Assembly (NCBI GenBank): GCA_947589005.1
Contig: CANPZO010000007.1
Location: 1-64,000, forward strand
Length of the DNA: 64,000 nucleotides
Origin: an uncultured Clostridia bacterium
Lineage (GTDB): Bacteria; Bacillota; Clostridia; UMGS1883
Direction: 5' to 3'
The notes beneath the pieces are model-generated. The model was not told where the DNA came from. It saw only the letters and a program-made list of their open reading frames with translations, and searched no databases. This document shows positions 5,823-27,471 of the stretch, piece by piece (within the stretch, counting starts at the first letter, position 1; the number at the start of each line of letters is the position of its first letter). Position numbers and translations under genes: made by a program.

Positions 5823-5855
5823 GTTGAAGGGAGGTCAGGGCAATAGCCCGCTGCG

Positions 5856-6392
5856 ATGATAAGAACAAGCGACGAACTTCGATGGTATGTTGCCCACACC
5901 TACGCCGAGTATGAGATGAAGGTCAAGGACAGCATTGAGAAAACCGTTGACAACCGTAATATCCGCAATCTTATCGCCGAGGTGCGCGTCCCCACGGAGG
6001 ATGTTGTGGAGGAAAAGGAGGACGGCCAGAAAAAGGTCGTCCAGAGAAAAATTTATCCCGGCTACGTCTTTGTAAAGATGATAATGACCAACGAAACTTG
6101 GTACATCGTCCGCAATACCCGCGGCTGTACCGGCTTTGTGGGACCGGGAAGCGAGCCTGTGCCGCTGAGCGAAAAGGAAGTCGAGCGCATGGGCGTGGAG
6201 GTGCCGACAGTCGAGGTGGACTACGCCGTGGGCGATACGGTCCGCATCAACGAGGGCTCCATGGAGGGCTTCATGGGCGAGGTTGTGGATATAAATACCG
6301 AGCGCAGGACAGTCAGCGTCATGGTGACCATGTTCGGCGGACGCGAAATGCAGGTGGATTTCGATTTCCGCCAGGTAGAGCCCCTGGAGTAG
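5856..6392 (+). CDS. nusG: Transcription termination/antitermination protein NusG
   Basis: WYVAHTYAEYE..., YPGYVFVKM, KOW region. Confidence 0.95.
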   Translation: MIRTSDELRWYVAHTYAEYEMKVKDSIEKTVDNRNIRNLIAEVRVPTEDVVEEKEDGQKKVVQRKIYPGYVFVKMIMTNETWYIVRNTRGCTGFVGPGSEPVPLSEKEVERMGVEVPTVEVDYAVGDTVRINEGSMEGFMGEVVDINTERRTVSVMVTMFGGREMQVDFDFRQVEPLE

Positions 6393-6510
6393 TCCCGGGA
6401 CAGTTAAGTTTTGAGTGGGAGGACGGCGCAGGAGCGCCGCTTTGGTCCGCTATAGCAGCCCCGCACGGCGCTGCTTAATACCACATTTTTTCATAGGAGG
6501 TGCACTAATA

Positions 6511-6936
6511 ATGGCACAGAAAGTTACAGGCTACATTAAGCTGCAGATACCCGCAGGCAAGGCCACTCCGGCGCCGCCGGTAGGTCCCGCCCTGGGTCAG
6601 CACGGTGTTAATATCGTGCAGTTTACCAAGGAATTCAATGAGAGAACGGCTAAGGACGCAGGTCTTATTATCCCTGTTATAATTACCGTTTACGCCGACA
6701 GATCCTTCACCTTTGTGACAAAGACGCCCCCCGCGGCCGTCCTTATCAAAAAGGCGTGCAAAATCGAAAGCGGCAGCGGCGTGCCCAACAAGACCAAGGT
6801 CGCCGCTATCAAAAAGGCCGACCTTCAGGCCATAGCCGAGCAGAAAATGCCCGACCTTAACGCCGCCAGCCTCGAGGCTGCCATGAGCATGATCGCGGGT
6901 ACCGCGAGAAGCATGGGCGTAACTGTTGAAGACTAA
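6511..6936 (+). CDS. rplK: 50S ribosomal protein L11
   Basis: [35 protein letters not shown]; aggagg RBS; ORF-track start is upstream of the true ATG. Confidence 0.97.
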
Positions 6937-7002
6937 CGCGCTTTGCGCACAAATAAGTGGGAGGGAGAAATCCCGTTGACCACCAAGGAGGTTAATTAAG
7001 CA

Positions 7003-7695
7003 ATGAAACACGGTAAGAAATATAATGCCGGCGCCAAGCTCATTGAGGCCGGTAAGCAGTATGACCCTGCCGAGGCTCTGGAGCTGGTCGTTAAGACCGC
7101 CAGCGCGAAGTTCGACGAGACTATCGAGGCCCATATAAAGCTGGGCGTTGATTCCCGCCACGCCGATCAGCAGGTCCGCGGCGCCGTTGTACTTCCCAAC
7201 GGAACAGGCAAAAAGGTGCGCGTGCTCGTATTCGCCAAGGGCGACAATGTTGACAAGGCCCTCGCCGCCGGCGCCGACTATGTGGGCGCCGAGGAGTATG
7301 TCGCCAAAATACAGAATGAGAACTGGTTCGATTTTGACGTGGTAATAGCCACTCCCGATATGATGGGCGTAGTTGGCCGTATAGCCCGTATCCTTGGTCC
7401 TAAGGGCCTCATGCCCAACCCCAAGGCCGGTACCGTAAGCCCCGATGTGGCCCGTGCCGTCAACGAGGTTAAGGCAGGTAAAATCGAGTACCGTCTCGAC
7501 AAGACCAACATCATTCACTGCCCCATCGGTAAGGCGTCTTTCGGCGCGGAAAAGCTGGGTGAAAATCTGAACACCCTTATGTCCGCCATAGTCAAGGCTA
7601 AGCCCGTCGCCGCCAAGGGCACCTATCTCAAGAGCGTTGCTATCGCAAGCACAATGGGCCCGGGCATAAGAGTGAACGGCGCCAGATTTATGTAA
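7003..7695 (+). CDS. rplA: 50S ribosomal protein L1
   Basis: [35 protein letters not shown]. Confidence 0.97.
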
Positions 7696-8943: not shown

Positions 8944-9033
8944 GCTGACTTAAAAATGGAACGCAGAGGGGCCTTTCGGCCCCTTTAGCATAGGTAAAAT
9001 TCTTGGGCGGCGTTTTGAAGCGAGGTGCGGAAA

Positions 9034-10035
9034 ATGACTTACGAGGAGTTTGTAAAGGAAATAAAGGCGGGGCTTCCGTCGTCATTATATCTGCTGACAG
9101 GGCCGGAGGACTTTTTGAAGGAAAAGTGCATCGAACAGGCCAAAAGCAGGCTGGTGACGCCGGGCTTTGAGGACTTTAACTTTCAGAGCTTCAATCAGGT
9201 TCCGGATTTTTCCGCGTGCGCCGATTTTGTGAACGGTATGCCGATGATGAGCGAACGCAAGCTGCTGGTGCTCAGAAAGTGCGGGTTTTTTGACGCGAAG
9301 CTCAAGGGCAAGGCCGACTGGGAGGGGTTGTTCTCAAATCTGCCCGAGACGGTCTGCGTCTTGCTTTGGGAGCCGGATCCGGAAAAAAAGAAAGCCTCAA
9401 CCGGCCTGCGGAAGGTATGCGAACAGGCCGGCACCGTGGTGGATTTTCAGTACCAGACAGCGTCAAAGCTGGCGCCGTGGATAGCGAAGGCGGCCTCGGC
9501 CGGAGGTAAGCTTATCGACCGCGGCTGCGCCGAATATCTCATCGCCAGCCTCGGACGCAGCATGAGCGTGCTGAAAACCGAGCTGGAAAAGGTGACGGCC
9601 TATGCCGCCGGAGAGCAGATAACCAGGGCGGACATCGACGCGGTGATAATCCTGCCCACGGAGGACAGGGCCTTCAAGCTTATCGACTCCATTATGGATG
9701 GGCGAAGGGACCTTAGCTATATGTATCTGGGCGAGCTGCGGCAGAACAGGACGGAACCGGTACAGTTTTTGTCGCTGTTTGCCGGTCAACTGCTGACGAT
9801 TTATCGGGCCAAGCTGCTGTTGGGAGAAGGAATACAGAGGAGCGCGGCGGCCAAAAGGCTGGGCGTGGCTCCGTTTGTGGCCGATAAATGCGTGGCTAAG
9901 GCCGCCCGCGCCTCGGAGGAGGGTCTGGAGGGATTGATTTCCCTTTGCAGGGACGCTGACCGGGATATAAAGCAGGGCAAAATAGAGCCTTGGACCGCGC
10001 TGGAGCTGATAGTGGCCCGGGCAAAAGTGATGTAA
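9034..10035 (+). CDS. holA: DNA polymerase III delta subunit
   Basis: MTYEEFVKEIKAGLPSSLYLLTGPEDFLKEKCIEQ; HolA-like throughout. Confidence 0.88.
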   Translation: MTYEEFVKEIKAGLPSSLYLLTGPEDFLKEKCIEQAKSRLVTPGFEDFNFQSFNQVPDFSACADFVNGMPMMSERKLLVLRKCGFFDAKLKGKADWEGLFSNLPETVCVLLWEPDPEKKKASTGLRKVCEQAGTVVDFQYQTASKLAPWIAKAASAGGKLIDRGCAEYLIASLGRSMSVLKTELEKVTAYAAGEQITRADIDAVIILPTEDRAFKLIDSIMDGRRDLSYMYLGELRQNRTEPVQFLSLFAGQLLTIYRAKLLLGEGIQRSAAAKRLGVAPFVADKCVAKAARASEEGLEGLISLCRDADRDIKQGKIEPWTALELIVARAKVM

Positions 10036-10302
10036 ACGCCGAAGCAAAATGCTTCGGCGTTTGAGCTTGTCGAAAAACAAAAATGTAGCCTTGAAACTGT
10101 AGGGGCGGTCATTGGCCGTCCGCCATCAAACGTTTATGTTGACAATGATAAATGATATTACAATCAAATATATTCACAAAATCGTATATTTGTCACCGTA
10201 AATCTGTGTAAGCGGGAGCGCAATGCGCTCCCCTACAAAATCCGGCAAAGAAATCGACTTTATCGACAGTCTGAAACGCTGAAGCATTTTGCTTCGGCGT
10301 TT
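10034..10302. repeat. IR-bounded intergenic element containing two REP-like hairpins
   Basis: Left arm aaacgccgaagcaaaatgcttcggcgtttgagcttgtcgaaaaa matches reverse complement of right arm aaacgccgaagcaaaatgcttcagcgtttcagactgtcgataaa. Confidence 0.75.
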
Positions 10303-10373: not shown

Positions 10374-10402
10374 TTGACATTGGAATTTTGGGGTGGTAAT
10401 AT
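10374..10402 (+). promoter_or_regulatory. sigma-A-type promoter upstream of phage module
   Basis: TTGACA-17 nt-TAATAT. Confidence 0.7.
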
Positions 10403-10454
10403 ATAGCTACACAGGCGAACAAATGTTTGCGTTTTGAAGCGGGGAGGTAGACAA

Positions 10455-10748
10455 ATGACAAAAAGAAAAAGGCCGGGGGTGAAGTTCTGCATCGTGTGCG
10501 GCAGAAAAATACCCGAGTGCAGCAACCGGCACAAAATATGCAGCGAACGCTGCGCGAAAAAGAGAAAAAATCTCGCCAGAAACGGGATGGCGGCGCCTTA
10601 TGAGTACGCAACGGAGCCTCCTATCACATATTACTCTCTGGGCGAAATCCAGAGAAGGGCCAGAGCCATGGGGTTGAGCTACGGCCAGTATATGAGCAGG
10701 ATATACAACGGAGGAATGAGCTTTGAAGGGATACAAAAGGCTAATTGA
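10455..10748 (+). CDS. Small phage protein with a zinc-finger-like Cys motif
   Basis: CIVCGRKIPECSNRHKICSERCAKKRK; overlaps terminase start. Confidence 0.55.
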   Translation: MTKRKRPGVKFCIVCGRKIPECSNRHKICSERCAKKRKNLARNGMAAPYEYATEPPITYYSLGEIQRRARAMGLSYGQYMSRIYNGGMSFEGIQKAN

Positions 10749-12288
10749 CGAATACTTCGAGAGGTGCATGGGAGAGGAGCGAGAGGGAAAAAACGGCGAA
10801 AATATAAGAGTGAACTCCAAGCCGCCCACCCTTACGGGACTGGCGCTGGCGTTAGGCTTCAACAGCAAGGCCGAGCTGATGAAATTCGGCAGGAGCAAAA
10901 GAGGAAAGGAGTTAGTCGAGAACGCCAGACTGAAAATAGAAAATTACAACGAGGAAAAGCTGTTCGAAAAGGACTTTGCCAGAAGCGCCATTTTCAATCT
11001 CACCAACGCAAGAGAGGATCAGGCGGCGGAAGAGGAAAGGGAGACGGGCATGAAAATACCGGCGGAGCTGGTAGGCTCGGCCTTTGTGGATCTTTACAGG
11101 GACATCGCCGCGGAAGGGCACGGAGAGTACGTGCTTAAGGGCGGCCGTGGCAGCACGAAATCTTCTTTTGTGGCGCTGGTCATCATTGAAAGGCTCATGA
11201 GACGGGAGGACGAGCACGCCGCCGCCATGCGTCAGGTGGGGGCCACCCTCCGGGACAGCGTTTACGCGAGGCTGTGCTGGGCCATCAACGTACTGGGGCT
11301 GGAAAACGAGTTCGAGTGCAGACTTATGCCGCCGGAGATAATCAGGAAAAGCACAAAACAGAAAATATATTTCAGGGGCGCGGACGACCCCTCAAAGCTC
11401 AAGTCGCTGACGCCGTCCTTCGGACACATAGGTATGCTGTGGCTGGAGGAGCTGGACCAGTTCGGCGGAGAGGCCCAGGTCAGGAGCATCGAGCAGAGCC
11501 TGCTACGGGGCGGGGAGGGGCTGGTGTTTAAAACCTTTAATCCTCCGCTTTCGAGAAACAACTGGGCCAACAGGTACGCCGCCATGCCGAAAAAGAACCG
11601 CATGGTGCATCACAGCACCTATCTGGACGTGCCGGCCCAATGGCTGGGAAGCCGCTTCATAGAGGAGGCGGAGTTCCTGAAGGAGACAAATCCGACGGCC
11701 TATGCTCACGAGTATCTGGGCGAGTGCGTGGACTGCGGCGGGCTGGTGTTTGAAAATCTCACCGTCAGGGATATAAGCGATGAGGAGATAAGCGGCTTTG
11801 AACGTATTTACAACGGCATAGACTGGGGCTGGTACCCGGACCCCTTCAGATTTTGCCGCTGCGCCTATATCGCCGGAGAAAGGCGGCTGTTCATATTTGA
11901 CGAAATAAGCGGCAACAAGCTGTCGAACGGGGATATCGCGGAAAGGCTAAGGGAAAAGGGCATAGGCGGCGGGGACAGGATAACCGCGGACAGCGCGGGC
12001 GAGGGCCCCAAGAGCATCGAGGACTTAAAGTCGGCGGGCTTTATGATAAGGGGAGCGGTTAAGGGCCCGGGGAGCGTGGAGTATTCCATGAAGTGGCTTT
12101 GCGGGCTGAGAGAGATAGTGGTGGACGGACGGCGCTGTCCCAACGCCGCCAGGGAATTTGCGGAGTACGAATTTGAACGGGACAGGGACGGTCAGGTCAT
12201 GGGCGGTTATCCCGACCGTGACAACCACAGCATCGACGCGGTGCGCTACGCCATGGAGGAGGTTTGGCGGAAAAGAGGGATAAAGTAG
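10723..12288 (+). CDS. Phage terminase: gp3-type small subunit-like N-terminus fused to PBSX-type large subunit
   Basis: N-term PPTLTGLALALGFNSKAELMKF...ARLKIENYNEEKLF...AIFNLTN; Walker A LKGGRGSTKSS; Walker B MLWLEELDQF; nuclease-like IDWGWYPDP and NHSIDAVRYA. Confidence 0.85.
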   Translation: MKGYKRLIDEYFERCMGEEREGKNGENIRVNSKPPTLTGLALALGFNSKAELMKFGRSKRGKELVENARLKIENYNEEKLFEKDFARSAIFNLTNAREDQAAEEERETGMKIPAELVGSAFVDLYRDIAAEGHGEYVLKGGRGSTKSSFVALVIIERLMRREDEHAAAMRQVGATLRDSVYARLCWAINVLGLENEFECRLMPPEIIRKSTKQKIYFRGADDPSKLKSLTPSFGHIGMLWLEELDQFGGEAQVRSIEQSLLRGGEGLVFKTFNPPLSRNNWANRYAAMPKKNRMVHHSTYLDVPAQWLGSRFIEEAEFLKETNPTAYAHEYLGECVDCGGLVFENLTVRDISDEEISGFERIYNGIDWGWYPDPFRFCRCAYIAGERRLFIFDEISGNKLSNGDIAERLREKGIGGGDRITADSAGEGPKSIEDLKSAGFMIRGAVKGPGSVEYSMKWLCGLREIVVDGRRCPNAAREFAEYEFERDRDGQVMGGYPDRDNHSIDAVRYAMEEVWRKRGIK

Positions 12289-12356
12289 GGCGAGGAGTTA
12301 CGGCCGCAAGGCCGATATGTAAAAAAAGACGGGAAAAATAAACGAGGAGGGAACTT

Positions 12357-13631
12357 ATGTTTTGGAAAAAACGTGAGGAAAACGTACCCGCGGGAAGGGT
12401 GAGCACCGGAGCCATGGACGAGGCCCGGCGGAGATGGAGGTCAATGTATCTCAGCACGAAGGGGCTCCGTCTGCCGGCGGCGGTGGCCGGAGAACTGGCC
12501 CGGCTCACCACTGCGGAAATGAAGGTGAGCATTGGGGGCAGAGACGGAAAATTCCTGGAAAAAACGCTGAACCCCCTGATGGGCAGGCTGCGGCGGGAGC
12601 TGGAATACGGTCTGGCCGAGGGCAGTCTTGTGTTTAAGCCTTATTACGACGGGCGGGAGCTGAGGATTGACGTTGTTAAGGGAGACTGCTTCCGCCCGAC
12701 GGCCTGGGACAGCGGCGGCGCCGTGACGGGGGCGGTGTTCGTACAGGAGATAAAAAAGGAGGACGGCTACTATGTGAGAGAGGAAAGGCACAGTCTGGGA
12801 GACGGGGCCTACCGCATAGAAAACGCCGCCTTCAAGTGCCGTATCCCCGGAGAGGCGGGCAGGAGCATCCCGCTCCACGAGGTGGAGGAGTGGAAGGACA
12901 TGGCGGAGAGCCTTGTCATAGAAAATGTAAACAGGCCGCTTTTCGGATTTTTCCGCACGCCGTCGGCTAACACGACGGACCCCGGGTCGCCCTTGGGAGT
13001 ATCGGTTTTTGCCGGAGCGGAGGAGCTGATGGAGGACGCGGACAGGCTGTACAAAAACCTGCTGTGGGAGTTCGAGAGCGGCAAGCGGCGGCTGTACGTG
13101 GACGTTACGGCCTTTGAGCGCGACCCGAAGGGACGGCCCAAGCTGCCCGACACGGAGCTGTTCAGGACCATAGACGTTAATGACAGCGGCTTTTTCAGCG
13201 AGTGGTCGCCGGAGCTGCGGAACGGGGCCATTCAGTCGGGACTTAATACGGTGCTCCAGAGGGTGGAGTTCAACTGCGGGCTGGCTTACGGTACGGTGTC
13301 TCAGCCCTCCTATGTGGAAAAGACGGCGGAGGAGATAAGGTCGTCAAAGCAGCGGAGCTACTGCTTTGTGAAGGACCTTCAGCGGGAGCTGGAAAAGGCC
13401 CTCAGAGAGCTTATAGACGCTTTGAGCGTGTGGGCGGAGCTGTACGGACTGGTGGAAAATGGCGAGTATGAGTGCGGCTTCGAGTTCGACGACAGCATTG
13501 TGGCAGACCGCCGAACGGAGTACGAGGAGAGGGTGCGGCTCACGGAACTGGGCGTGCTCAGACCCTGGGAGCTCCGCGCCTGGTATCTGGGCGAGACCGA
13601 GACTATGGCGAGGGAGGCCCTCGGCGAGTGA
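12357..13631 (+). CDS. Phage portal protein (SPP1 gp6-like)
   Basis: Position after terminase; SPP1-portal-like layout (YLSTKGLRLPAAVAGELARLTTAEMKVSIGG). Confidence 0.75.
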   Translation: MFWKKREENVPAGRVSTGAMDEARRRWRSMYLSTKGLRLPAAVAGELARLTTAEMKVSIGGRDGKFLEKTLNPLMGRLRRELEYGLAEGSLVFKPYYDGRELRIDVVKGDCFRPTAWDSGGAVTGAVFVQEIKKEDGYYVREERHSLGDGAYRIENAAFKCRIPGEAGRSIPLHEVEEWKDMAESLVIENVNRPLFGFFRTPSANTTDPGSPLGVSVFAGAEELMEDADRLYKNLLWEFESGKRRLYVDVTAFERDPKGRPKLPDTELFRTIDVNDSGFFSEWSPELRNGAIQSGLNTVLQRVEFNCGLAYGTVSQPSYVEKTAEEIRSSKQRSYCFVKDLQRELEKALRELIDALSVWAELYGLVENGEYECGFEFDDSIVADRRTEYEERVRLTELGVLRPWELRAWYLGETETMAREALGE

Positions 13632-13951
13632 AAAAGATAAGGATATTCAGCTATGACAGGGCGGCGGGGGCATACAGCTTCGCCGACTACAACTGCACGG
13701 TCGTTCTTCATGACGGACAGGAGCCGGAAAGCGGTGGGACTTACCGCAAAAACGGAGGCAGCGTCAGGATAATGACAAGTAAGGACGTTGCCGTGAGGCC
13801 GGGAGACTGGCTTTCTCTGGACACGGGACGCGACAGGCCGGATAAGGACAGGGACAGGCTGGTCACCGAGGTAAGGGACAACAGAAGGGGCGGACTGCCC
13901 CATTGGAGGCTGATATTAGATGGCAGGGCCGGAGTTAGAGTTAACTCTTAA
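13628..13951 (+). CDS. Putative phage minor capsid / head-completion protein
   Basis: GTG start overlapping portal stop (gtga); in frame with ORF 13472..13951; position upstream of a Minor_capsid_2-like gene. Confidence 0.5.
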   Translation: MKKIRIFSYDRAAGAYSFADYNCTVVLHDGQEPESGGTYRKNGGSVRIMTSKDVAVRPGDWLSLDTGRDRPDKDRDRLVTEVRDNRRGGLPHWRLILDGRAGVRVNS

Positions 13952-14282
13952 TCCCACGGAGAACATACTGCGGAAGAGGGGACTGGACAAGGGCGGCGCG
14001 GTGCAAAGGGCGGTGGATAAAGCGGTCATCGACCTATGCGAGCCATATGTCCCCTTTGACACAGGAGCTTTGAAGGAAAGCCCAAAAACCTGTTCCTCGC
14101 CGGGAAAGGTGGTCTACGGTATGCCCTATGCCCGAAAGCAATACTACGAAAACAAGGGCGACGGCGGCCTGAGAGGAGCGAGGTGGTTCGAGCGCATGAA
14201 GGCGGACCATATGGGCGACATAGTCGAAATAGCCGAGGAAACGATGAAAAAAAGCGGCGGGCAAAAGGGCGCGGCGAACTGA
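13920..14282 (+). CDS. Phage minor capsid protein (Minor_capsid_2-like)
   Basis: YVPFDTGALKES...YGMPYARKQYYENKGDGGLRGARWFERMKADH. Confidence 0.65.
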   Translation: MAGPELELTLNPTENILRKRGLDKGGAVQRAVDKAVIDLCEPYVPFDTGALKESPKTCSSPGKVVYGMPYARKQYYENKGDGGLRGARWFERMKADHMGDIVEIAEETMKKSGGQKGAAN

Positions 14283-14297
14283 AAAAGGGAGGAAAAT

Positions 14298-14618
14298 ATG
14301 AAATTTACGTTTGAAAATTTTTCGAGAGAGGTGGACAACATGGACGTGGCCGTGGTAAAGCGTTATGAGAGCTGCCTTGAGGACTTTTATAAAAGGGTGG
14401 CGGGCATAGATATGAAAAAGAAGGCCAGCGGCATATACGGCGACATATGCGCTGCCGGCGAGGCCATGATGGACGGCTTTTTCGGCGAGGGCGCGGCACG
14501 GGAAATGTTCGGCGAGAGCCAGAGCGTCAGAAAGGTCATGGAGGCGGTCTGCGGGCTCAACGGCTATATGAACGACGTGAGCGGGGTCGTTGACGGCATG
14601 AGGAGATTGGGAGCGTGA
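14298..14618 (+). CDS. Phage protein, possible tail assembly chaperone
   Basis: Small helical ORF overlapping the next ORF by gtga. Confidence 0.4.
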   Translation: MKFTFENFSREVDNMDVAVVKRYESCLEDFYKRVAGIDMKKKASGIYGDICAAGEAMMDGFFGEGAAREMFGESQSVRKVMEAVCGLNGYMNDVSGVVDGMRRLGA

Positions 14619-15157
14619 GCATCCTGACCCGCGGACTGCCGGAGTTTGTGGTCTGCCGGGGAGAGAGATATGAGATAGAAACAGACTTCCGGGTCTGGAT
14701 AGATTTTTACGAGCGGGCCCGGGAGCGGGATATACCGGGGATGCTTAAGGTGTACCGCCGTCTGCCGCCCTCGCTGAGCGAGGCGCTGGAGCTGGCGGCG
14801 GAGTTCGGCCGGGGAGGAGCCCTGCCCTACGGAAGCGGACATAGGGGCGGCCGCGCCCTGCTGGATTACGAGGCCGACGCGGGACTCATATACGCGGCCT
14901 TTATGGGTGAGTACGGCATCGACCTCTGTGAGGCAAGGCTCCACTGGTACAAGTTCTGCGCTCTGCTGGCAGGTCTTGGGGAGGGTCGGGCCCTTTCCAG
15001 GGTGATGGCCATCAGGGGCATGGACCCGTCGGCCCAGACCGACAGCGGACGCAGAAGCGAGCTGCGGAGGCTCCAGAGGATATACGCCTGTCCGGACAGG
15101 CGCAGCCTTGAGGAGCGGGACGCGGACGCGGCGGCGGTCCTCGGTAAGTTTTATTGA
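14615..15157 (+). CDS. Bacteriophage Gp15-like protein (possible tail assembly chaperone)
   Basis: Gp15-like features: ETDFRVWIDFYERA, LLDYEADAGLIYAAFMGEYGIDL, LHWYKFCALLAGL. Confidence 0.6.
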   Translation: MSILTRGLPEFVVCRGERYEIETDFRVWIDFYERARERDIPGMLKVYRRLPPSLSEALELAAEFGRGGALPYGSGHRGGRALLDYEADAGLIYAAFMGEYGIDLCEARLHWYKFCALLAGLGEGRALSRVMAIRGMDPSAQTDSGRRSELRRLQRIYACPDRRSLEERDADAAAVLGKFY

Positions 15158-15206
15158 CGTATGGCAGGGAGGGTGGGATAAAAATATTTTGGAAGGAGGG
15201 AAAATA

Positions 15207-15596
15207 ATGGACAGAAAATTTTTGGAGGAAAAGGGCCTCGACGAGGAGGCCATCGACGAGATAATCGCCGAGCATGAGAAGCTAATGGACGAGCTTCGGG
15301 TTGAAATGGAGGCCAAAATCTCCGAAAAGGAGGAAGAGATGGAGGAGCTCCGCAGGGACTTCGACATCGACAGAGAGCTGACCGGACTGGGAGCCAGAAA
15401 CCATAAGGCGGTAAAGGCCCTGCTCGACAAGGAGGCTCTCAGAACGGGCGACCCCGAGGAGCTCGTAAAACAGCTGGAAAAGATACGCCGTGAAAACGGA
15501 TATCTTTTTGCCGGCTCGAATACCCCCGTGGCCACCGGCCCTACCGCGCCCAGAACCGAAAAGAGCTTCGGGTTTAAGTTTACGGGGGTAAGATGA
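15207..15596 (+). CDS. Phage scaffold protein (GP20-like)
   Basis: Helical charged N-term, LTGLGARNHKAVKALLD motif; immediately before capsid gene; ATG 15207 after ggagggaaaata. Confidence 0.75.
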   Translation: MDRKFLEEKGLDEEAIDEIIAEHEKLMDELRVEMEAKISEKEEEMEELRRDFDIDRELTGLGARNHKAVKALLDKEALRTGDPEELVKQLEKIRRENGYLFAGSNTPVATGPTAPRTEKSFGFKFTGVR

Positions 15597-15676
15597 GGGA
15601 CGGCCGACGTCCCCAAATCGGCGGCGGGCCTTAAGCGACCCACGGCCGGCCATGAAAAACGAAAGGAGTAAAAATT

Positions 15677-16561
15677 ATGGCAGCACTTAACTATGCGACC
15701 GAATACGCGGGCAGTCTTGCCCAGGCGTATCCCTATGTGCTCAACTTCGGCGCTCTCTACAATACGGAGAACGATCAGCGTTACCGCTGGGTAAACGCTA
15801 AAACCATCGAGATACCCAGCATTACCACCACCGGCAGGGTGGACGGCGACAGGGACACCATCGCGACGGCAAAGCGCAACTATGACAACGCCTGGGAAAT
15901 GAAGACCCTTACTCACCACCGCAAGTGGAGCACTCTCGTACATCCCATGGACATAGACGAGACAAATATGACCGCGTCTATCAGCAACATAACTCAGGTG
16001 TACAACGAGGAGCACAAGTTCCCCGAAATGGACGCCTATACCGTATCGGAGATATACAAGCTCTGGACAACGGACGGCAATACCGCCGACACCACCGTGC
16101 TCAAGGCGACAAACGTGCTTTCGGTATTTGACAAAATGATGGAGGCCATGGACGAGGCCAGAGTCCCCGCCAAGGGAAGGATACTTTACGTGACCCCCGC
16201 GGTAAAGACCCTGATCAAAAACGCGAACCAGCTTTCTCACGTCATTAACAACGGCGACGCCAAGGTGGACCGCAGCGTGGCGGACCTGGACAGCGTGGAG
16301 ATAGTGGCCGTGCCCAAGAACCTGATGAAAACCTCCTACGACTTCACGGAGGGTTGGAAGGTCGGCGGAGATGCCAAGCAGATAAATATGCTGCTCATCC
16401 ATCCCAGCGCGGTCATAACTCCCGAAAAGTACACCTTTGCCCGTCTGGACGAGCCCAGCGCCGGAAGCGAGGGCAAGTACATATACTTTGAGGAAAGCTA
16501 TGACGGGGTGTTCATCCTCAACAAGAGAATGGGCGGAGTGGCCTTTAACACGGAGGCTTGA
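15677..16561 (+). CDS. Phage major capsid protein
   Basis: Follows scaffold; HK97-fold-like features (WVNAKTIEIPSITTTG, ILYVTPAVKTLIKN). Confidence 0.8.
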   Translation: MAALNYATEYAGSLAQAYPYVLNFGALYNTENDQRYRWVNAKTIEIPSITTTGRVDGDRDTIATAKRNYDNAWEMKTLTHHRKWSTLVHPMDIDETNMTASISNITQVYNEEHKFPEMDAYTVSEIYKLWTTDGNTADTTVLKATNVLSVFDKMMEAMDEARVPAKGRILYVTPAVKTLIKNANQLSHVINNGDAKVDRSVADLDSVEIVAVPKNLMKTSYDFTEGWKVGGDAKQINMLLIHPSAVITPEKYTFARLDEPSAGSEGKYIYFEESYDGVFILNKRMGGVAFNTEA

Positions 16562-16564
16562 GCC

Positions 16565-16921
16565 ATGAGCTACGAGGAGTATCTGGAAAGATACACCGGA
16601 GCGGAGCCTGTGCCGGAGCGGGAATTCGGCTTTTACTGCGAAAAGGCGGGCAGGCTCATAGACAGCTTCACCTTCGGGCGCGGGTCGGAGTCGGAGCTGG
16701 AGGAGGTGGCTTACGCCCAAGCGGAGCTGATACAGTATCTCTATGAAAACAGCGGAAGGAGAGGCGTGGTCAGCGAGAGCAACGACGGCCTGAGCGTAAC
16801 CTATGCCGACGGCGGCTCCGAGGTCTCGGACGCCAGAGACATTGTGAAGCAGTGGCTCGGCGGTACCGGCCTTATGTACGCCGGAGTGGAGATGGGAGAG
16901 AGCTGCGATGGCGGTTATTGA
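16565..16921 (+). CDS. Head-tail connector / DNA packaging protein
   Basis: Size, position, helical gp6-like sequence. Confidence 0.5.
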   Translation: MSYEEYLERYTGAEPVPEREFGFYCEKAGRLIDSFTFGRGSESELEEVAYAQAELIQYLYENSGRRGVVSESNDGLSVTYADGGSEVSDARDIVKQWLGGTGLMYAGVEMGESCDGGY

Positions 16922-17324
16922 CAGTGTGAGGCGGTTTTTCGCGGAGTGCCCGCTGCTTGAGGACGGCTGTATAAACGTGAATTATCTGGGAGCAAAAAAA
17001 GCGGATTACAGCATAGAGAGCGTTCCGTCGGAGCCTGTGGTGCGCCGGTACGTGGACGGGGGCGAGCTGAGACAGTACGTCTTTGTTTTCGCCTCCCGTG
17101 AATACTACGACGAGGACATGGAGGACAATTCCCACACCGCCGGTTTTTATGAGGAGCTGGCGGCATGGATAGAGGACAGCGGCAAAAATGGGAGGCTGCC
17201 TGTGCTGACCGGCGGAAAGGCCCTTGCCATGGAGGTCATGTCCGGCGGCTATGTCCTGTCGGAAAAGGCCGGAACCGCCAGATACCAGATGCAGCTTAGG
17301 CTGATATACAAAAAGGAGGAGTAA
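16908..17324 (+). CDS. Phage minor capsid 3-like / tail terminator
   Basis: Position between connector and tail tube; ends GTARYQMQLRLIYKKEE. Confidence 0.5.
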   Translation: MAVIDSVRRFFAECPLLEDGCINVNYLGAKKADYSIESVPSEPVVRRYVDGGELRQYVFVFASREYYDEDMEDNSHTAGFYEELAAWIEDSGKNGRLPVLTGGKALAMEVMSGGYVLSEKAGTARYQMQLRLIYKKEE

Positions 17325-17326
17325 AT

Positions 17327-17788
17327 ATGGCACTGGTAAAACGCTGTGAGAAGCTGGCGTTCATGAATGTGGACGGAACTTATCACAGAATGACTAATTT
17401 TACGGAGATAGCCGTGGAGAAAAACCCCAGGGAATACTCCCGGCAGTACGTGGACGAGGAGTTTGAACGCTCCAGCATTGTGGGCTACAGCACGGCGGTA
17501 AGCTACAGCTTCGACTACGACAACGAGAACAAGGTCCACAACCTCATAAAGAAGATAACGGACAAGGAACTGCTTGCGGACGAGGCCGTCGTGGAGATAG
17601 TTATGGTGGATATCGATAATACCGAGGGCAAAAATCAGGCGGTGAGCCGCCGTTGGAGCGTTATACCCGAGACCGAGGGCAACAGTACCGACGCCTACAC
17701 CTACAGCGGAAGCTTCCGCGCCAACGGCCCTGCCGCGGATGTCAAGGCGGTATCCGCCGACGGCTGGAAAACCATAACGGTTGAGTAA
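17327..17788 (+). CDS. Phage major tail tube protein
   Basis: Tail-tube-like size, position, repeated beta segments. Confidence 0.65.
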   Translation: MALVKRCEKLAFMNVDGTYHRMTNFTEIAVEKNPREYSRQYVDEEFERSSIVGYSTAVSYSFDYDNENKVHNLIKKITDKELLADEAVVEIVMVDIDNTEGKNQAVSRRWSVIPETEGNSTDAYTYSGSFRANGPAADVKAVSADGWKTITVE

Positions 17789-17817
17789 GCGGGACGCCCG
17801 TAAGCGGAGGTGAGGCT

Positions 17818-19524
17818 ATGGCGGGAGACGGAAGTATCGTCATAAATACCGAGCTCGACACCGGAGGTCTGGAAAAAGGGCTGGACAGGCTCAAGGAGCT
17901 GGTCAAAAGCCGGTCCGCCGACGCCGGTGACAGTCTCGGCGGAATATTCGACGGCCTTGAGTCGGCGCTTAAGGGTATCTCGGTGACCGAGGGGATAGGA
18001 AAGCTCATCGACAGCGCGAAGGACGCGCTGGTGGGCGGCGCGGCGGAGCTCAGCTCCGCCGCCGGCCTGACCGCGAGGGACGCGGCAGAGGGCCTCGGCG
18101 CGGGTGATGATAATTTCAGAAAAGGCGGGAGCGGCCTTGCGGCGGCCGCCGCCGAGGGTCTTTCATCGGGGGAAAACGCTCTTGACGCCGCCGGAAGCTC
18201 GGCGGCGGAGAGCGCGGCCTCGGCCATGAATGTGCCCGGAAATTTCCTTTCCGTGGGGCTGAACCTCATAAACGCCCTGAGAAACGGTTTGGCCTCCGGC
18301 GCCGCCGCCCTCTATGCCAAGGCGTCGGAAATCGCCGGAAGGGTCACGGCTCTGGTAAAGGGCGTGTTCAAGATACATTCTCCCTCGGCGGTGTTCAGAG
18401 ATGACATCGGTAAGATGCTGATGCTGGGCCTGCGGGACGGTATCTTGAACAATTCCGAGGCGGTGCTGGCGGCAACGGAGGCTCTGGCGGAGGATATGCT
18501 TGAGTCGGAAAAGAGGTATCTGGCGGAGAAGAAACGGATAGACGAGCTCAACGACCAGGAGGACGAGGCCCGCCGGGTCCGCGAGTACGAAGAAAGGCTC
18601 AGCCTGGCCAAGACTCGGGAGGAAAAGGACGAGCTTATAGAGGAAGAAAGGCTCCGGCTCAGAAAGCGGGCCGACGCCAAGTATCTCGAGCAGCTCAAGT
18701 CCGCCGCTGAAAAGGAAAGGGAAATAATTGACGGGCTCAAGGAGGACATTACGGCGGCTTACAAGGACATAGCCGAGTATATAGAGAACAGTCTGGAGCC
18801 CATAGAGGAGGACCGCAGAGACCTTGAGGACAAGCTGAAAAAGTACGCCGGAAGCAGCGGCGGTCTGTACACAACGGTGATAGAGCGCAAGGACCGTGAC
18901 GACCTGGTCTATTACGGTTTGGCGGACCAGCAGAGGGCCATAGACATTCTGAACAAATACTCCTCGGCGCTCGGCGCCGCCTCGGAACGGATAAAGTCGG
19001 CCTTCGGCCCGGAAACGGCAAGGAGCTTTATGTCCGCCCTGACGGAGATGGACGTGGAGGAGGGCGCGATTTTTGCCGAAACCTTGGCGGCGGCGTCGGA
19101 CGCGGACTTTGAAAAGTACATTAAAGACTGGGGAAAGAAGAACACCCTTGCGGAGGAGATATCCCGTCAGCTTTACGGCGAAGCCTTCACCGACGCGGTG
19201 GACGACTGCACCGAGTATATGCGCAGTGAGCTGGAAAAATTGGGGCTTGAGGTGCCGGAGGGCTTTTTCGCCAGCGGCAGCCTCAGCGCAAAGGAGTTCG
19301 GCAGAGGCTTTTCCGAGGGGATAAATCAGGTCCTTGAGGAGGCGGGAGAGCTGATAAGGAGCTTCGGCGGCTTTTCGACAGCGGCGGCGGCCGGCGGGAC
19401 GCCGGTGGTGAACAACAACTATTACAGCACCTATTCCGTAAACGGAACAAGGAGCACCGCCGCGGAAAGCATCTTTGCCATGGAAGCCGCCGCCGTAATG
19501 AACAGATACAGGGGGCTGAACTGA
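17818..19524 (+). CDS. Short phage tail tape measure protein
   Basis: KGVFKIHSPSAVFRDDIGKMLMLGLRDGI typical of tape measure; long helical segment; precedes Dit. Confidence 0.75.
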   Translation: MAGDGSIVINTELDTGGLEKGLDRLKELVKSRSADAGDSLGGIFDGLESALKGISVTEGIGKLIDSAKDALVGGAAELSSAAGLTARDAAEGLGAGDDNFRKGGSGLAAAAAEGLSSGENALDAAGSSAAESAASAMNVPGNFLSVGLNLINALRNGLASGAAALYAKASEIAGRVTALVKGVFKIHSPSAVFRDDIGKMLMLGLRDGILNNSEAVLAATEALAEDMLESEKRYLAEKKRIDELNDQEDEARRVREYEERLSLAKTREEKDELIEEERLRLRKRADAKYLEQLKSAAEKEREIIDGLKEDITAAYKDIAEYIENSLEPIEEDRRDLEDKLKKYAGSSGGLYTTVIERKDRDDLVYYGLADQQRAIDILNKYSSALGAASERIKSAFGPETARSFMSALTEMDVEEGAIFAETLAAASDADFEKYIKDWGKKNTLAEEISRQLYGEAFTDAVDDCTEYMRSELEKLGLEVPEGFFASGSLSAKEFGRGFSEGINQVLEEAGELIRSFGGFSTAAAAGGTPVVNNNYYSTYSVNGTRSTAAESIFAMEAAAVMNRYRGLN

Positions 19525-20375
19525 TGGAGATAATTTTTAGAAACGCTCTGGGTGCCATAGAAATGGACGGCGGCTCCGGAACGGCGCCCTTTAAAATACT
19601 TGGCGCGGAGGGGCTGGGTTACCTGACACAAAGCGTCAAGACGACGGCCTATCCCTTCATGGCCGGACAGAGGACCCTTTCGCGCAGCCCGGGGGCGAGG
19701 CTCGTCACTCTGTCCGCCGAGGCCGCCGAGGGCGGCGCGAACTACGAAGGCACCGTGGCGGCCATCGCCCACGAAAGCGGACGGCTGGAAATAATACACG
19801 GTGAAAAAAGGGTGTACGCCGACTGCTATGTAAGCGCCCTGAACGTCACCCGGGCCAAGGGCGGAGAGTACGAAAAGTATGTGTTCCAGTTCACTTGCGA
19901 CTATCCGTATTTCCGTGACATGAACGCCGGCGCGGTGAGCCTGTTCCGGAGAAATAAGCTGGTAAAGGGGAGCTTTGTGCTGCCGAAGGTGTTTTCCGAA
20001 AGGGTCACCGGCGGAACGGTGACGGTCAAAGGCGACAGGGAGGTCTATCCTACGGTTTATGTCCGGGGACTGTCTTACGAAACGGAGTTCCCTCTTGAGC
20101 TGGAGAACACCGCCACAGGCGCAAGGCTTAAGCTGACGCTGCCGGCGGGGGAATACGAGCTGATAACCTTTGACCTGCGCAACGGAAGGATAAGCTGCGG
20201 CGAAAAGGATTTGAGCAAATATCTGGACGAGAACAGCTTCATGAGTGATTTTTACCTCTTGAAGGGCGAAAATCGCATCGAGGTCAGAGCCATGGACCTT
20301 TCGGTGAACACCTCGGCCTCGGTGAGCTGTGAAAGCGAGTATTACAGCGCGTGGGAGGACAGAGATGTGCGGTGA
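19524..20375 (+). CDS. Phage distal tail protein (Dit-like)
   Basis: Follows tape measure; Dit-like beta-rich sequence. Confidence 0.65.
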   Translation: MEIIFRNALGAIEMDGGSGTAPFKILGAEGLGYLTQSVKTTAYPFMAGQRTLSRSPGARLVTLSAEAAEGGANYEGTVAAIAHESGRLEIIHGEKRVYADCYVSALNVTRAKGGEYEKYVFQFTCDYPYFRDMNAGAVSLFRRNKLVKGSFVLPKVFSERVTGGTVTVKGDREVYPTVYVRGLSYETEFPLELENTATGARLKLTLPAGEYELITFDLRNGRISCGEKDLSKYLDENSFMSDFYLLKGENRIEVRAMDLSVNTSASVSCESEYYSAWEDRDVR

Positions 20376-21309
20376 ACTGATTTTTTACGACTATGAGTTC
20401 AATCCTTTGGGAAGGGTGGCGCGGGCGGCGGACATCTATCACAAGGAGATATACAACGGCATCGGCACATTTGAGGCGGAAATCGACCGTTCGGAGCCAA
20501 TGGCGGCGGAGCTTTTGAGAAGAGATTACACCGTTGTAATATGGGACGGCCTACAGGCGGTGATAACCTCCGTCCAGGCGGAGGAGGGCGAGGAGACGGT
20601 GAGGATATACGGACGCACTCCCAACTGGATCCTCGGCAAACGGGCCTGTCCCAACTTCGGCCAACGTAACGGAACGCCTCACGCGCTGGCCCACGCTTTG
20701 GTGAGCGAGGTCTGGGGCGACAGCATCGCCGACGGTCCGGGCGGAGATATCGGGGGCGAGGAGACCACCTTCTGGCGGAACGTGTACAATCCCTTAAGCG
20801 AGGTGGTAGCGGACTGCCTTGACCGTGCCGGAGCGGGACACCGGGTGGTGTTCGACACAAATGATAAGCAGTGGAGGTTCGAGACCTACGAGGGGAGGCT
20901 CCTGCCGCTGATGTTTTCGTCGGACAGGCGCAACGCTGCCGATATGAGCTGCAGCCACAGCGTGCTGGACCATTTCAACGGCGGCTTTTATACCACCGAC
21001 GAGGAGAAGGGCACGTGGACGGAGATACCCTCGGACAAGGAGGGCATATACCGCTGGACCGCCCGCCTGACAAGCACCGGCGAAAGTTCGGCCAAAAACG
21101 AGCTTGAGAAGAAGAAAATAGAAAATAAAATCGACTTCAGCACTCTTGATATTCTGCGGGGCAGGGATTACGAGCTGGGTGACCGCGTCCGCGCGGCCAT
21201 GGACCTTGGCGGAAAGCGGATAGTGAACGAAATGAGGATAACGGCGGTGGAAAGGTGGGCGTCGTACAATGACAGCGGCGAAAGGCCGCTGTTGGAGGGA
21301 ATGGAGTGA
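20365..21309 (+). CDS. Phage tail protein (ReqiPepy6 Gp37-like / tail hub)
   Basis: FYDYEFNPLGRVARAADIYHKEIYNGIGTFEAEID; ATG 20365 overlaps Dit stop. Confidence 0.7.
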   Translation: MCGELIFYDYEFNPLGRVARAADIYHKEIYNGIGTFEAEIDRSEPMAAELLRRDYTVVIWDGLQAVITSVQAEEGEETVRIYGRTPNWILGKRACPNFGQRNGTPHALAHALVSEVWGDSIADGPGGDIGGEETTFWRNVYNPLSEVVADCLDRAGAGHRVVFDTNDKQWRFETYEGRLLPLMFSSDRRNAADMSCSHSVLDHFNGGFYTTDEEKGTWTEIPSDKEGIYRWTARLTSTGESSAKNELEKKKIENKIDFSTLDILRGRDYELGDRVRAAMDLGGKRIVNEMRITAVERWASYNDSGERPLLEGME

Positions 21310-21444
21310 GAAACGCGCGGCGCAAGCGATATGCGCCGCGGCTCTTTAAGGGCTGTTCTCCACTCTATGACGCGGGGGTACAAGTCCCGCCGGAGCACCG
21401 AAGGGCGGGACTTAGGCCCCTATTGAATTTGCAGAGGTGAAAAA

Positions 21445-22314
21445 GTGAAATATTACTTTGGCGATAATCGGGAATACGGCGCCGCCGACATAAAAAAAGC
21501 CTTTGGCGTGTTCGCGGCGCAGGGAGGCATAGACTTGGGACTAAGCGACGGAAAGCAGCACAGTCCCTCGGATTTGAACCGCATCATAGCCGCGGCGGTG
21601 AGCAAGGGCGTCGTCACCGAAAGCAACAGCTGTCTCAGGCTTGACGAAAAGGACGGCGGCTACTATATCCTGCCGGGCAAGGGAGTGTTTTCCGACGGCG
21701 GCATGGCGGAGGTAGAGGAGGAGACGAGGGTCGATATAAGCGGAGGGCATTATCTGTACATAGCCTACAGTGAAATGCTGGACGAGGTGTATTTCCTTGT
21801 GACGTCGGACCCCCGCACCGACAGCGTCAGCGAGCTCCTGATACCCATAGCCTACGTGGACGAAAGCGGAAAGCCTCGGGATATGCGGGAATTTGCCAGA
21901 GGCAAGCTGCCGGCCCTGCCCTCGGCCACCTGGAACGTGATGCGCGAGGTGGAGCTGGTGGTGGACGCATCGACCGTAACTCACGGGGAGATAAATTCCG
22001 ACCGCTATATCGAGGCGAGGCATCCCATCGACGGCGACATAAACTTTATGATGGTGGAAAGCGAAATATTCATGTCCACCATGAACATAGGCCCTGTCGG
22101 CGCCGCCTATCACACGGTGGCGGGCGGCGGCACCGGATTGCACATCCACACCCACGACTATTTTGGCGTGCATTACAGCGGCAGCTTTTACCGCGCCACC
22201 TATCTGGGCGGAGGGAGCGGCTATATAGACCTGCGGTATTATTTCCCCAAAAATCTGGCCGGTGGAAGGTTTTCGTATAAGGCGACGGTGGGGATAAAAA
22301 ATAACCCTGTGTGA
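21445..22314 (+). CDS. Putative baseplate / receptor-binding protein
   Basis: Last ORF of the tail module; no confident family. Confidence 0.45.
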   Translation: MKYYFGDNREYGAADIKKAFGVFAAQGGIDLGLSDGKQHSPSDLNRIIAAAVSKGVVTESNSCLRLDEKDGGYYILPGKGVFSDGGMAEVEEETRVDISGGHYLYIAYSEMLDEVYFLVTSDPRTDSVSELLIPIAYVDESGKPRDMREFARGKLPALPSATWNVMREVELVVDASTVTHGEINSDRYIEARHPIDGDINFMMVESEIFMSTMNIGPVGAAYHTVAGGGTGLHIHTHDYFGVHYSGSFYRATYLGGGSGYIDLRYYFPKNLAGGRFSYKATVGIKNNPV

Positions 22315-22417: not shown

Positions 22418-22564
22418 GGGCTGTCAAAAAAATCGCGTAGAAAAAAATCGGAACAGGCGTTGCATCGCTTGTTTCGATTTTTTTTACTTTTTCGGCGGCT
22501 TGAGGGCAAGCCGCCCTACGGAGCACTAACGCAACAAAGTAGAGGTTTCGTTTTTCGCAGCCCC
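22418..22564. repeat. IR-bounded REP-containing intergenic element (copy A)
   Basis: ggggctgtcaaaaaaatcg at left, reverse-complement-like tttttcgcagcccc at right, REP hairpin inside. Confidence 0.65.
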
Positions 22565-23884: not shown

Positions 23885-24844
23885 TTGTCCCTTATTGAAA
23901 AACATGAGGCGGTGCGCGTTTTGGGAGTTATCTATTCAAAAATACTGTATCTGGGACTGATGATACTGGCCGGATTTATCTGTGAAAAGACCGGCTATGT
24001 GGACAGGCTCTGTGACCGCACCGGCAAGCTGATAAAAAACGTGACCCTGCCGTTGCTGGTGCTTACCAGCGTTACCGGCCAGAACGTGGGCCGGAGCGCG
24101 GCGGGGGAGGCCGCCACGGTGGTGGCCTTCGCTTTCGGCGGCATGGCTTTCCTGGCGGCGGCGGGCTTTGTCACGGCGAAGCTGTTCCGCCTGAGCAAGA
24201 CCCAGACGCCGGTACATATCTGCCTCGGCACCTTCGGCAACGTGGTGTTCCTGTGCTATCCGCTGGTGCAGGCGGTGTTCGGGGACAAGGGCATACTTTT
24301 CGCCGTGTTTTACGCCATCGCAAACGATTCCATGCTCTGGACGCTGGGCGTGGCCTCCGTCAGCGGGGAAAAAGGGCTGAAAAGCCTTAGACACCTCATA
24401 AACCCCTGTACCGTTACCTTTGCGGTCGCCTTGACCATGCTCTGCCTGGGGCTTAGGCTGCCGGGCACGCTCAACGACGCCGCCGCCGCGGTGGGCGCGG
24501 CGACCACGCCCCTCTCAATGATGTTTATCGGGGCGACGCTGGCGGGCATCAGCTTTGCGGGGGCGCTGAAAAAGCCCCAGATATACGTGCTGAGCGTAGT
24601 TAAGATGATAATAGTTCCGGTGCTGGCAATGCTGGTGATAAGGGCCCTGTCCCTTCCCCTCAGCGAGGCGGCGGCAGGAGCCCTGGTGTTCCAGCTTGCG
24701 ATGCCCTGTCAGACCATATTCGCGGTGATAGCCTCGGAATATAAGCTGGACACCGCCTACGCCGCGGAGATTATATTCATGACCACAGTTTTTTCGGCGG
24801 TCAGCCTTCCGCTGGTATACCGGCTTATGGAGGTGATACTCTGA
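23885..24844 (+). CDS. AEC family (auxin efflux carrier) transporter
   Basis: Multi-TM; LGTFGNVVFLCYPLVQAVFG, MPCQTIFAVIASEYKLD; start uncertain. Confidence 0.8.
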   Translation: MSLIEKHEAVRVLGVIYSKILYLGLMILAGFICEKTGYVDRLCDRTGKLIKNVTLPLLVLTSVTGQNVGRSAAGEAATVVAFAFGGMAFLAAAGFVTAKLFRLSKTQTPVHICLGTFGNVVFLCYPLVQAVFGDKGILFAVFYAIANDSMLWTLGVASVSGEKGLKSLRHLINPCTVTFAVALTMLCLGLRLPGTLNDAAAAVGAATTPLSMMFIGATLAGISFAGALKKPQIYVLSVVKMIIVPVLAMLVIRALSLPLSEAAAGALVFQLAMPCQTIFAVIASEYKLDTAYAAEIIFMTTVFSAVSLPLVYRLMEVIL

Positions 24845-25458
24845 TGAGGTACAATGTTGAAAATCAAAGGCTTTGGTCCGGTATGCGGCGGGCGGCGGAA
24901 TATTTTGACACCGATATGGGCGGATTGAACAAATACCTCTGCCTGGCCGACGGAACTTTGGAAATGATGGAGGAGTACGGCATCGTCCCCGAGGGCGAGC
25001 TGCTCCTAAGGATAGTGCGCTTTTTGGGCATGACCAGCGGAGAAATAATTTTTGACCGTGAGCCGGAGGCCGGACTGGAGACGCCCCGGCATATCCCCGT
25101 CTTTGGCGGTGAGGGCAGGGCGGAGCTGCTGGGCCGGGTGATGGTGGATCTGCCTCCGGACGACGACAGGGAGTACGTAGGACTTACCGTCAGGGACAGT
25201 TCAATGAGCCGTGCCGGTATAATGGAGGGCGATCTTGCGGTCATACGCCGTCAGGCGGTGGCCGAGGACGGGGACATTGTGGCGGCGGAGGTGGACGGGA
25301 TCACGGTAGTGAGACGCTTCCGTCGAAGGGGCCTGCTGTCCTGGCTTGAGGCCGAGGGCTATGTGGGCGGCGAGTCCGATGTCAGCGGCATGACCTCGTC
25401 CGGCCCGAGGGTCGCCATATGGGGCAAGGTCGTTTCGTCCATAAGGAGCTATGAATAG
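24844..25458 (+). CDS. S24/LexA-like regulator, probably not self-cleaving
   Basis: LTVRDSSMSRAGIMEGDLAVIRRQAVAEDGDIVAAEVDGITVVRRF; lysine position appears to be Arg. Confidence 0.65.
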   Translation: MRYNVENQRLWSGMRRAAEYFDTDMGGLNKYLCLADGTLEMMEEYGIVPEGELLLRIVRFLGMTSGEIIFDREPEAGLETPRHIPVFGGEGRAELLGRVMVDLPPDDDREYVGLTVRDSSMSRAGIMEGDLAVIRRQAVAEDGDIVAAEVDGITVVRRFRRRGLLSWLEAEGYVGGESDVSGMTSSGPRVAIWGKVVSSIRSYE

Positions 25459-27180: not shown

Positions 27181-27471
27181 TGGGATATCAAAAAAATTGT
27201 GAAGAACGGCGTCGTCGCAAGCCTCGCTTCGCTTGCGGCGACTTTTTTGATTTTTTCGGCGGCTTGAGGGCAAGCCGCCCTACGGAGCACTAACGTAACA
27301 AAGTGGTGTAGGGCGGGCTGCCTTCAGCCCGCCGCTTATAATGACGGACAAAAAACTCGCAAAAGGTCGGTAGTGAGCCAAAGCCGCAGCGAGGTAAGCC
27401 ATGTTTCGAGTTTTAATCGAAACACGCGATACCGAGTTTGTGACGACGCAGATCTGCGCGATTTTTTGCTT
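27181..27471. repeat. IR-bounded REP-containing intergenic element (copy B)
   Basis: Left caaaaaaattgtgaagaacggcgtcgtcgcaagc vs reverse-complemented right caaaaaatcgcgcagatctgcgtcgtcacaaac; REP pair inside. Confidence 0.75.

Follow-up and report, generated by a model that had tools for sequence, protein, structure and literature searches.

To our knowledge, very few elements resembling gene transfer agents (GTAs) are known outside Alphaproteobacteria. PBSX of Bacillus subtilis possesses a contractile tail, and its lysis genes are linked. FpGTA I and II of Faecalibacterium were described in a packaged-DNA study of human faeces (PMC12946183, Nat Commun 2026). The FpGTA particles are ~40 nm and contain ~9 kb of host DNA, and the authors of that study count two such elements in Gram-positives, PBSX and FpGTA (PMC12946183). 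Capsid-borne host DNA was abundant in gut clostridia, but Faecalibacterium was the only one for which that study identified a candidate operon (PMC12946183). In this study, a stretch of 64,000 nucleotides from an uncultured Clostridia bacterium (assembly GCA_947589005.1, contig CANPZO010000007.1, positions 1 to 64,000; hereafter the window) was analysed. Its positions 10374–22314 contain 16 head-tail genes (g1–g16), referred to as operon I, which an initial annotation had proposed to encode a domesticated GTA- or PBSX-like particle. Our results suggest, with a probability of about 0.7, that the window carries operon I of a domesticated, GTA-like and SOS-induced particle system that is kept by a clostridial genus.

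Similar to FpGTA, this system belongs to a clostridial gut host, possesses a compact head and packaging operon that lacks replication genes and is nearly universal in the genus, and has its fibre, holin and endolysin genes in another operon that is unlinked to the first. FpGTA is described as podovirus-like, with no visible tail and a separate small terminase subunit (TerS) without an obvious DNA-binding domain (PMC12946183). By layout and description, the present system differs from FpGTA in having a set of tail-tube, tape-measure, Dit and hub genes, a terminase in which TerS is fused to the large subunit (TerL), a promoter common to both operons and a LexA box. Like RcGTA and CcGTA of Alphaproteobacteria, it consists of a siphovirus-like head-tail cluster with vertical descent, purifying selection and fibre and lysis genes located elsewhere. 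By description, it is set apart from them by its phylum and its capsid and terminase families. Moreover, RcGTA and CcGTA are controlled by GafA/CtrA, whereas control in the present system would be by the LexA box and the promoter common to both operons, and its chromosomal position is not conserved. With PBSX, it shares the features of a defective, host-encoded phage particle of Gram-positives, for which a link to the SOS response is predicted here; different from PBSX, it has no sheath gene and its lysis genes are unlinked. Finally, phiC2/A118-like siphophages and myophages possess related capsid, TerL, portal and Gp15 families, of which the capsid is 66% identical to that of Clostridioides phage phiC2 and TerL is ~50% identical to that of Blautia phage Montmirail. 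These phages, however, have separate TerS and TerL genes, an additional large gene located between those for portal and scaffold, and the canonical gene order, and none has the unit found in this genus. The present locus would add another such system from Clostridia, for which the evolutionary evidence is much stronger and the parts list, lysis genes included, is complete.

The capsid protein was searched for in 147 related genomes. The genus itself is represented by eight metagenome assemblies, G000 (the window genome) to G007, and in public records the relatives appear as uncultured Clostridia whose isolates are named 'Lapin', from which a rabbit gut habitat is read. Orthologs of the capsid protein (g9), with identities of 84–92%, were found in six of the seven other genus genomes (G001, G002, G003, G005, G006, and G007), and matches outside the genus did not exceed 30% identity. 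Two capsid paralogs of prophages, with identities of 70 and 64%, were also found inside G006 and G007. The 16-gene unit was in identical order in all recovered parts of the six other cluster-bearing genomes, of which operon I of G003 was partial. This order is unusual in that g4–g7 precede the scaffold gene, while phages and related clusters have the equivalents after the capsid gene. For instance, the canonical place of Gp15 (g7) in other clusters and phages is before the tape-measure gene, and the equivalent of g4 sits 3' of the connector gene in canonical clusters. The best-matching phages share ≤70% identity in capsid, ~50% in TerL and ~35% in portal. When 85,462 species genomes and IMG/VR were scanned, no other close copy of the unit was returned, and none of the IMG/VR contigs returned by the capsid scan carried the 16 genes.

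The tree of concatenated cluster proteins was compared with that of host proteins, including NusG, ribosomal proteins, HolA, FtsW, YabP/Q, DivIC and others. Both trees had the topology ((G000,G001),(G002,(G006,G007)),(G003,G005)) with bootstrap values of 95–100 for all seven cluster-bearing genomes. The genus has two deep branches, between which the identities of host proteins are ~60%, and the unit occurs in both. No internal stop codon was found in operon I genes. The ratios of non-synonymous to synonymous substitution rates (dN/dS; Nei-Gojobori) of operon I in the three closest pairs were 0.17, 0.13, and 0.13, and those of host genes in the same pairs were 0.15, 0.12, and 0.14. The dS values of cluster and host genes were comparable, with dS of the G000/G001 pair being near saturation. 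Given the congruent topology, the absence of stop codons and the host-like dN/dS and dS, operon I has the pattern expected of a host-owned system and not of a recent prophage. Vertical inheritance and long-term purifying selection, both of which characterize gene transfer agents, were found here.

In every genome, operon I is flanked by housekeeping genes, yet the neighbours vary, with at least four neighbourhoods. It adjoins holA and ftsW only in the window genome, where holA (9025–10035) and ftsW (in an open reading frame ending at 23845) flank it. G001 has the ftsW side in common, and the neighbours in both G000 and G001 are ftsW/MemTrans/S24/yabP. The neighbours are coaD/rsmD in G002, coaX/comF in G005, and hisB-like and phosphoglycerate-mutase-like genes in G006, whose upstream side is common to G007. 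The ftsW-S24-yabP block is present without the cluster in G003, G004, G005, and G007. No conserved chromosomal site was found for operon I. As the neighbours differ while the trees are congruent, the unit has changed place, through rearrangement or by another route, in the course of its vertical descent. No integrase, replication or self-transfer gene was linked to operon I in the flanks of five genomes.

A TTKACA-17 nt-TATNAT motif with the conserved spacer KGDAHWTTTNGGRTG was found upstream of g1 in G000, G002, G005, G006, and G007. The motif was also found upstream of the fibre gene of operon II in G000, G002, G003, G005, G006, and G007. When two mismatches were allowed, 13 matches were identified in the eight genomes. 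All 11 matches with no more than one mismatch preceded operon I or II, and none was obtained with the reversed control. Within the window, one match was found, compared to 0.00 expected. No match was found in related phages at up to three mismatches across 1.35 Mb of phage-like loci. Two matches with two mismatches near metA of G006 and G007 were considered as a third regulon member, but they face away from metA and were taken as chance. We infer that a dedicated factor reads the shared spacer at both operons.

The promoter of operon I is immediately followed by CGAACAWATGTTYG, to which each genome has two or three exact matches, with two sites in G000. The core AACAAATGTT is in front of lexA in G000, G001, G002, G006, and G007, where lexA carries CAAACAAATGTTCA, while lexA carries CGAACAAATGTTCT in G004 (twice) and G005. 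Additional matches were found in G005, where the site separates lexA from a yneA-like LysM gene, and in G006 and G007, at a radical-SAM gene with a putative role in DNA repair. Because the same type of site is found at lexA and SOS genes, the box of operon I is assigned as a LexA box. The box is positioned over the likely transcription start, and operon I should be under SOS-type repression. The promoter and LexA signature is searchable, and with this system direct tests of induction, packaging and transfer become feasible. Moreover, it provides a recipe for finding more such systems, namely a structural operon that has its promoter in common with an unlinked operon for fibre, holin and lysin.

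Operon II was found by searching the genus for the holin family, with the prophage copies set aside. In G000, it lies on another contig, downstream of malic enzyme and transaldolase genes. Orthologous operons were found in G003, G005, G006, and G007, and G002, whose operon II was partial, has the fibre gene and the promoter. The only cluster-bearing genome in which it was not found was G001, the assembly of which is fragmentary. Similar to operon I, the location of operon II varies between genomes. The N-terminal portion of the fibre is conserved along the host tree, whereas its C-terminal portion diverges strongly between species. The N-terminal domain of the fibre is also found directly behind g16 homologs in the compact clusters L262 (E = 4e-12), L263 (E = 3e-9), and L284 of other clostridial families, and in L283 a holin and a lysin of the operon II type come after the hub and g16. 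The best reading of operon II is therefore that it was once the 3' end of this virion module and became detached from it. Dispersed fibre and lysis genes, a further characteristic of gene transfer agents, were thus found in this genus. In L207 (G003) and L208 (G005), the first 130 amino acid residues of the fibre were identical and the printed upstream DNA was the same. As other genes of G003 and G005 are ~90% identical, recent exchange of this segment is indicated.

Operon I departs from its phage relatives in several structural features. The phage terminases consist of separate small (163–168 amino acid residues) and large (418–420 amino acid residues) subunits, whereas the terminase of the genus is a single fused open reading frame of 505–531 amino acid residues in six genomes. 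The ATPase and nuclease motifs of TerL are invariant across the genus, and g2 of the window contains the Walker A motif GGRGSTKSS and the nuclease Asp residues. A fused TerS-TerL open reading frame of 524 amino acid residues was also observed in a compact cluster of another family (L261 of G194, positions 5834–7408 of the reversed locus). The tape measure g13 possesses 568 amino acid residues, compared to 1017–1775 in its phage homologs, and keeps both conserved ends, so that a much shorter tail is predicted. In addition, the large gene found between portal and scaffold genes in phages is absent from operon I. The tail genes are of the short siphovirus type (tail tube, tape measure, Dit, and hub), and comparison with Pfam and PHROGs identified no gene for a contractile sheath among the 16 genes.

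If the system functions as proposed, DNA damage would cause RecA-driven cleavage of LexA and free the operon I promoter, and a shared factor reading the conserved spacer would switch on operons I and II. Capsids would then assemble, and the fused terminase would package cellular DNA instead of its own genome, because the system has no replication or excision genes. Short tails and fibres would attach, holin and endolysin would lyse the producer cell and free the particles, and DNA would be delivered to kin via fibre-mediated binding, which is the least secure of these steps. Damaged cells would thus probably lyse and set free particles that may carry bacterial DNA. As packaging and delivery of host DNA are proposed steps, the system is best called 'GTA-like'.

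Several observations weigh against this proposal. All of it is drawn from metagenome assemblies, with particles, packaged DNA and transfer being predictions from sequence. G004, which is 91% complete, has neither the capsid nor the cluster-type TerL, although it keeps the holin-lysin pair. In G001, the 84 bp upstream of g1, where the contig ends, contain neither the promoter nor the LexA box, and a LexA box at operon II was found in G003 and G005 only. The chromosomal position varies among species, which is unusual compared to the best known GTAs. Finally, the holin of operon II does not follow the host tree, as that of G000 is closer to those of G003 and G005, and part of operon II must therefore have been exchanged.

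The main rival of the GTA-like reading is a killing role, in which a domesticated, SOS-induced and PBSX-like bacteriocidal particle packs host DNA and kills competing strains, with the fibre C-terminus setting the targets. LexA control and a dedicated lysis operon fit both roles, and a conserved N-terminus with a variable C-terminus is what would be expected for receptor-binding proteins under selection by their targets. The same question was left open by the authors of the FpGTA study (PMC12946183). A tail-only killer, however, would have lost TerL, portal and capsid, all of which are fully retained under purifying selection, suggesting that packaging matters; we regard the killing role as unlikely. 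The same retention of capsid and terminase bears out the initial annotation in its view that a tailocin was improbable. Its call of a domesticated particle is also supported, and every computational check that it suggested favoured domestication: the unit is genus-wide, intact, vertically inherited and under purifying selection (dN/dS of 0.13–0.17, about equal to that of host genes), and has no integrase or attachment (att) site module. The comparison of the locus across relatives that it proposed recovered the unit, intact, in six of the seven other genomes, but not the holA/ftsW site.

The different sites could also be insertions by a mobile element, such as a satellite or an atypical prophage, that spreads in the genus instead of being rearranged with the chromosome. 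The neighbourhoods of operon I and the mobility of operon II would fit such an element. Its flanks, however, have neither integrase nor transposase, no shared att-like repeat was found, the trees are congruent with dS equal to that of host genes, and host synteny is broken at the same breakpoints, as in G006, whose yabP locus has lost the ftsW-S24 block. Spread by a mobile element is thus quite improbable. The initial annotation had also allowed for a recently truncated prophage. Integrase, repressor and replication genes are indeed not nearby, as would be the case for a decaying remnant that looks intact by chance. Presence in both deep branches, the host topology, the lack of stop codons and the housekeeping-like dN/dS refute this explanation, which retains a negligible probability. 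Nor are integrase, att sites, replication and lysis genes found together at operon I, as they would be in a functional temperate prophage.

Relatives of the cluster were surveyed by a class-wide search for the hub and by examining the loci of its matches. Many hub relatives belong to clusters that are just as compact and have a tape measure of 325–459 amino acid residues, compared to 986–1540 in recognisable prophages. The compact clusters on IMG/VR contigs and in other families of Clostridia (L257-L264, L270, L272, L275, L276, L278, L280-L284) have the same hub, Dit and Gp15 families as operon I. In L257, L259, and L263, an XRE-S24 repressor gene is divergently upstream of the compact cluster. 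In one other family, two species of one genus hold the cluster between penicillin-binding protein/thioredoxin/YigZ and Etf genes, and in a second genus the compact cluster likewise adjoins YigZ (L258, L259, and L257 of G077, G197, and G043, respectively). The identities were 77 and 67% for TerL, 83 and 74% for capsid and 66% for the adjacent penicillin-binding protein. With its fixed site, this cluster is a second vertically inherited case. In the hub tree, short and long tape-measure forms were intermixed with weak support, and no single origin of all short-tape-measure clusters is claimed. These compact clusters are possibly a large class of GTA-like elements. Tentatively, and at slightly less than even odds, Clostridia may harbour a widespread and largely unrecognised class of domesticated short-tailed particles, which takes the form of a LexA-gated two-operon regulon with its own promoter type in the genus studied here. 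If true, gut bacteria would respond to DNA damage by programmed lysis and by exporting DNA.

The coordinates of the features of operons I and II in G000 are listed in Table 1. The genes of operon I are on the same strand, tightly packed and all open, as determined from the open reading frames and comparison with Pfam and PHROGs. Thus, the roughly 14 uninterrupted co-directional phage genes of the initial annotation proved to be intact and co-directional but 16 in number, and the start at 10374 that it gave is the first base of the promoter. Its observation that integrase, replication and lysis genes are missing from 10374–22314 was confirmed with the window open reading frames by Pfam and PHROGs, and no integrase match was found on the window contig (C7). 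Its statement that lysis and regulation are absent holds for lysis within the cluster only, as lysis genes are at the unlinked locus on contig C4, under the same promoter, and a LexA box overlaps the start of the operon.

Table 1. Features of operon I in the window and of operon II elsewhere in the same genome (G000).
Feature	Position	Strand	Remarks
Operon I promoter	10374–10402	+	-35 TTGACA 10374–10379, conserved 17-nt spacer, -10 TAATAT 10397–10402
Predicted LexA box CGAACAAATGTTTG	10416–10429	+	14 nt after -10, over likely transcription start
g1, small treble-clef/zinc-finger protein, 97 aa	10455–10748	+	Weak HNH/zinc matches
g2, fused small and large terminase	10723–12288	+	GP3_package + Terminase_3 + Terminase_3C
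g3, portal	12357–13631	+	phrog_533, E = 9e-102
g4, DUF6751-like, probable head-closure protein	13595–13951 (start inferred)	+	Pfam, E = 3e-4
g5, minor capsid protein (Minor_capsid_2)	13920–14282	+	Pfam/PHROGs
g6, DUF6673, tail-assembly-chaperone position	14298–14618	+	Pfam/PHROGs
g7, Phage_Gp15, tail-assembly-chaperone position, displaced upstream of capsid genes	14615–15157	+	E = 1e-27
g8, scaffold	15207–15596	+	PF06810, E = 1e-17
g9, major capsid protein	15677–16561	+	phrog_422, E = 1e-102
g10, head-tail connector	16565–16921	+	Pfam/PHROGs
g11, tail completion	16908–17324	+	phrog_3266, E = 5e-44
g12, major tail protein	17327–17788	+	phrog_3099, E = 3e-33; homologous to tail-tube genes of phages, and in their position
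g13, short tape measure, 568 aa	17818–19524	+	PHROGs, phage comparison
g14, Dit	19524–20375	+	Pfam/PHROGs
g15, Gp37-type tail hub	20329–21309 (probable start 20365)	+	PF14594, E = 2e-14
g16, unassigned distal tail/baseplate protein	21445–22314	+	Genus orthologs 43–64%
Operon II tail fibre	Contig C4, L206 5454–7562		
Operon II holin	Contig C4, L206 7578–8006		PF05105
Operon II endolysin	Contig C4, L206 7993–8652		Amidase_2 + SLH domain

The start of g1 is most likely the ATG at 10455 and not the start of the open reading frame at 10434, and g1 was present, with identities of 70–88%, in every cluster of the genus for which that end was sequenced. The AlphaFold model of g16 was poor, with a mean predicted local distance difference test (pLDDT) score of 53. 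In one prophage and in other compact clusters, the hub is likewise followed by a homolog of g16.

No tRNA was found in the window. An S24-peptidase protein (24844–25458) between ftsW/MemTrans and yabP is fast-evolving and has a degenerate XRE-like N-terminus. It was considered as a dedicated repressor, but the gene is also between ftsW and yabP in G003, G004, G005, and G007, and it was rejected as cluster-specific because G004 has no cluster. No convincing att-like direct repeats were found around the cluster; an intergenic repeat of 123 nt, whose copies at 22418–22540 and 27182–27304 are 80% identical and flank the ftsW-yabQ block, is a dispersed one. Similar repeats occur near clusters in other species and may drive cluster relocation. 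Finally, a 44-nt inverted repeat with terminator-like hairpins (10034–10077 and 10259–10302) lies between holA and operon I.

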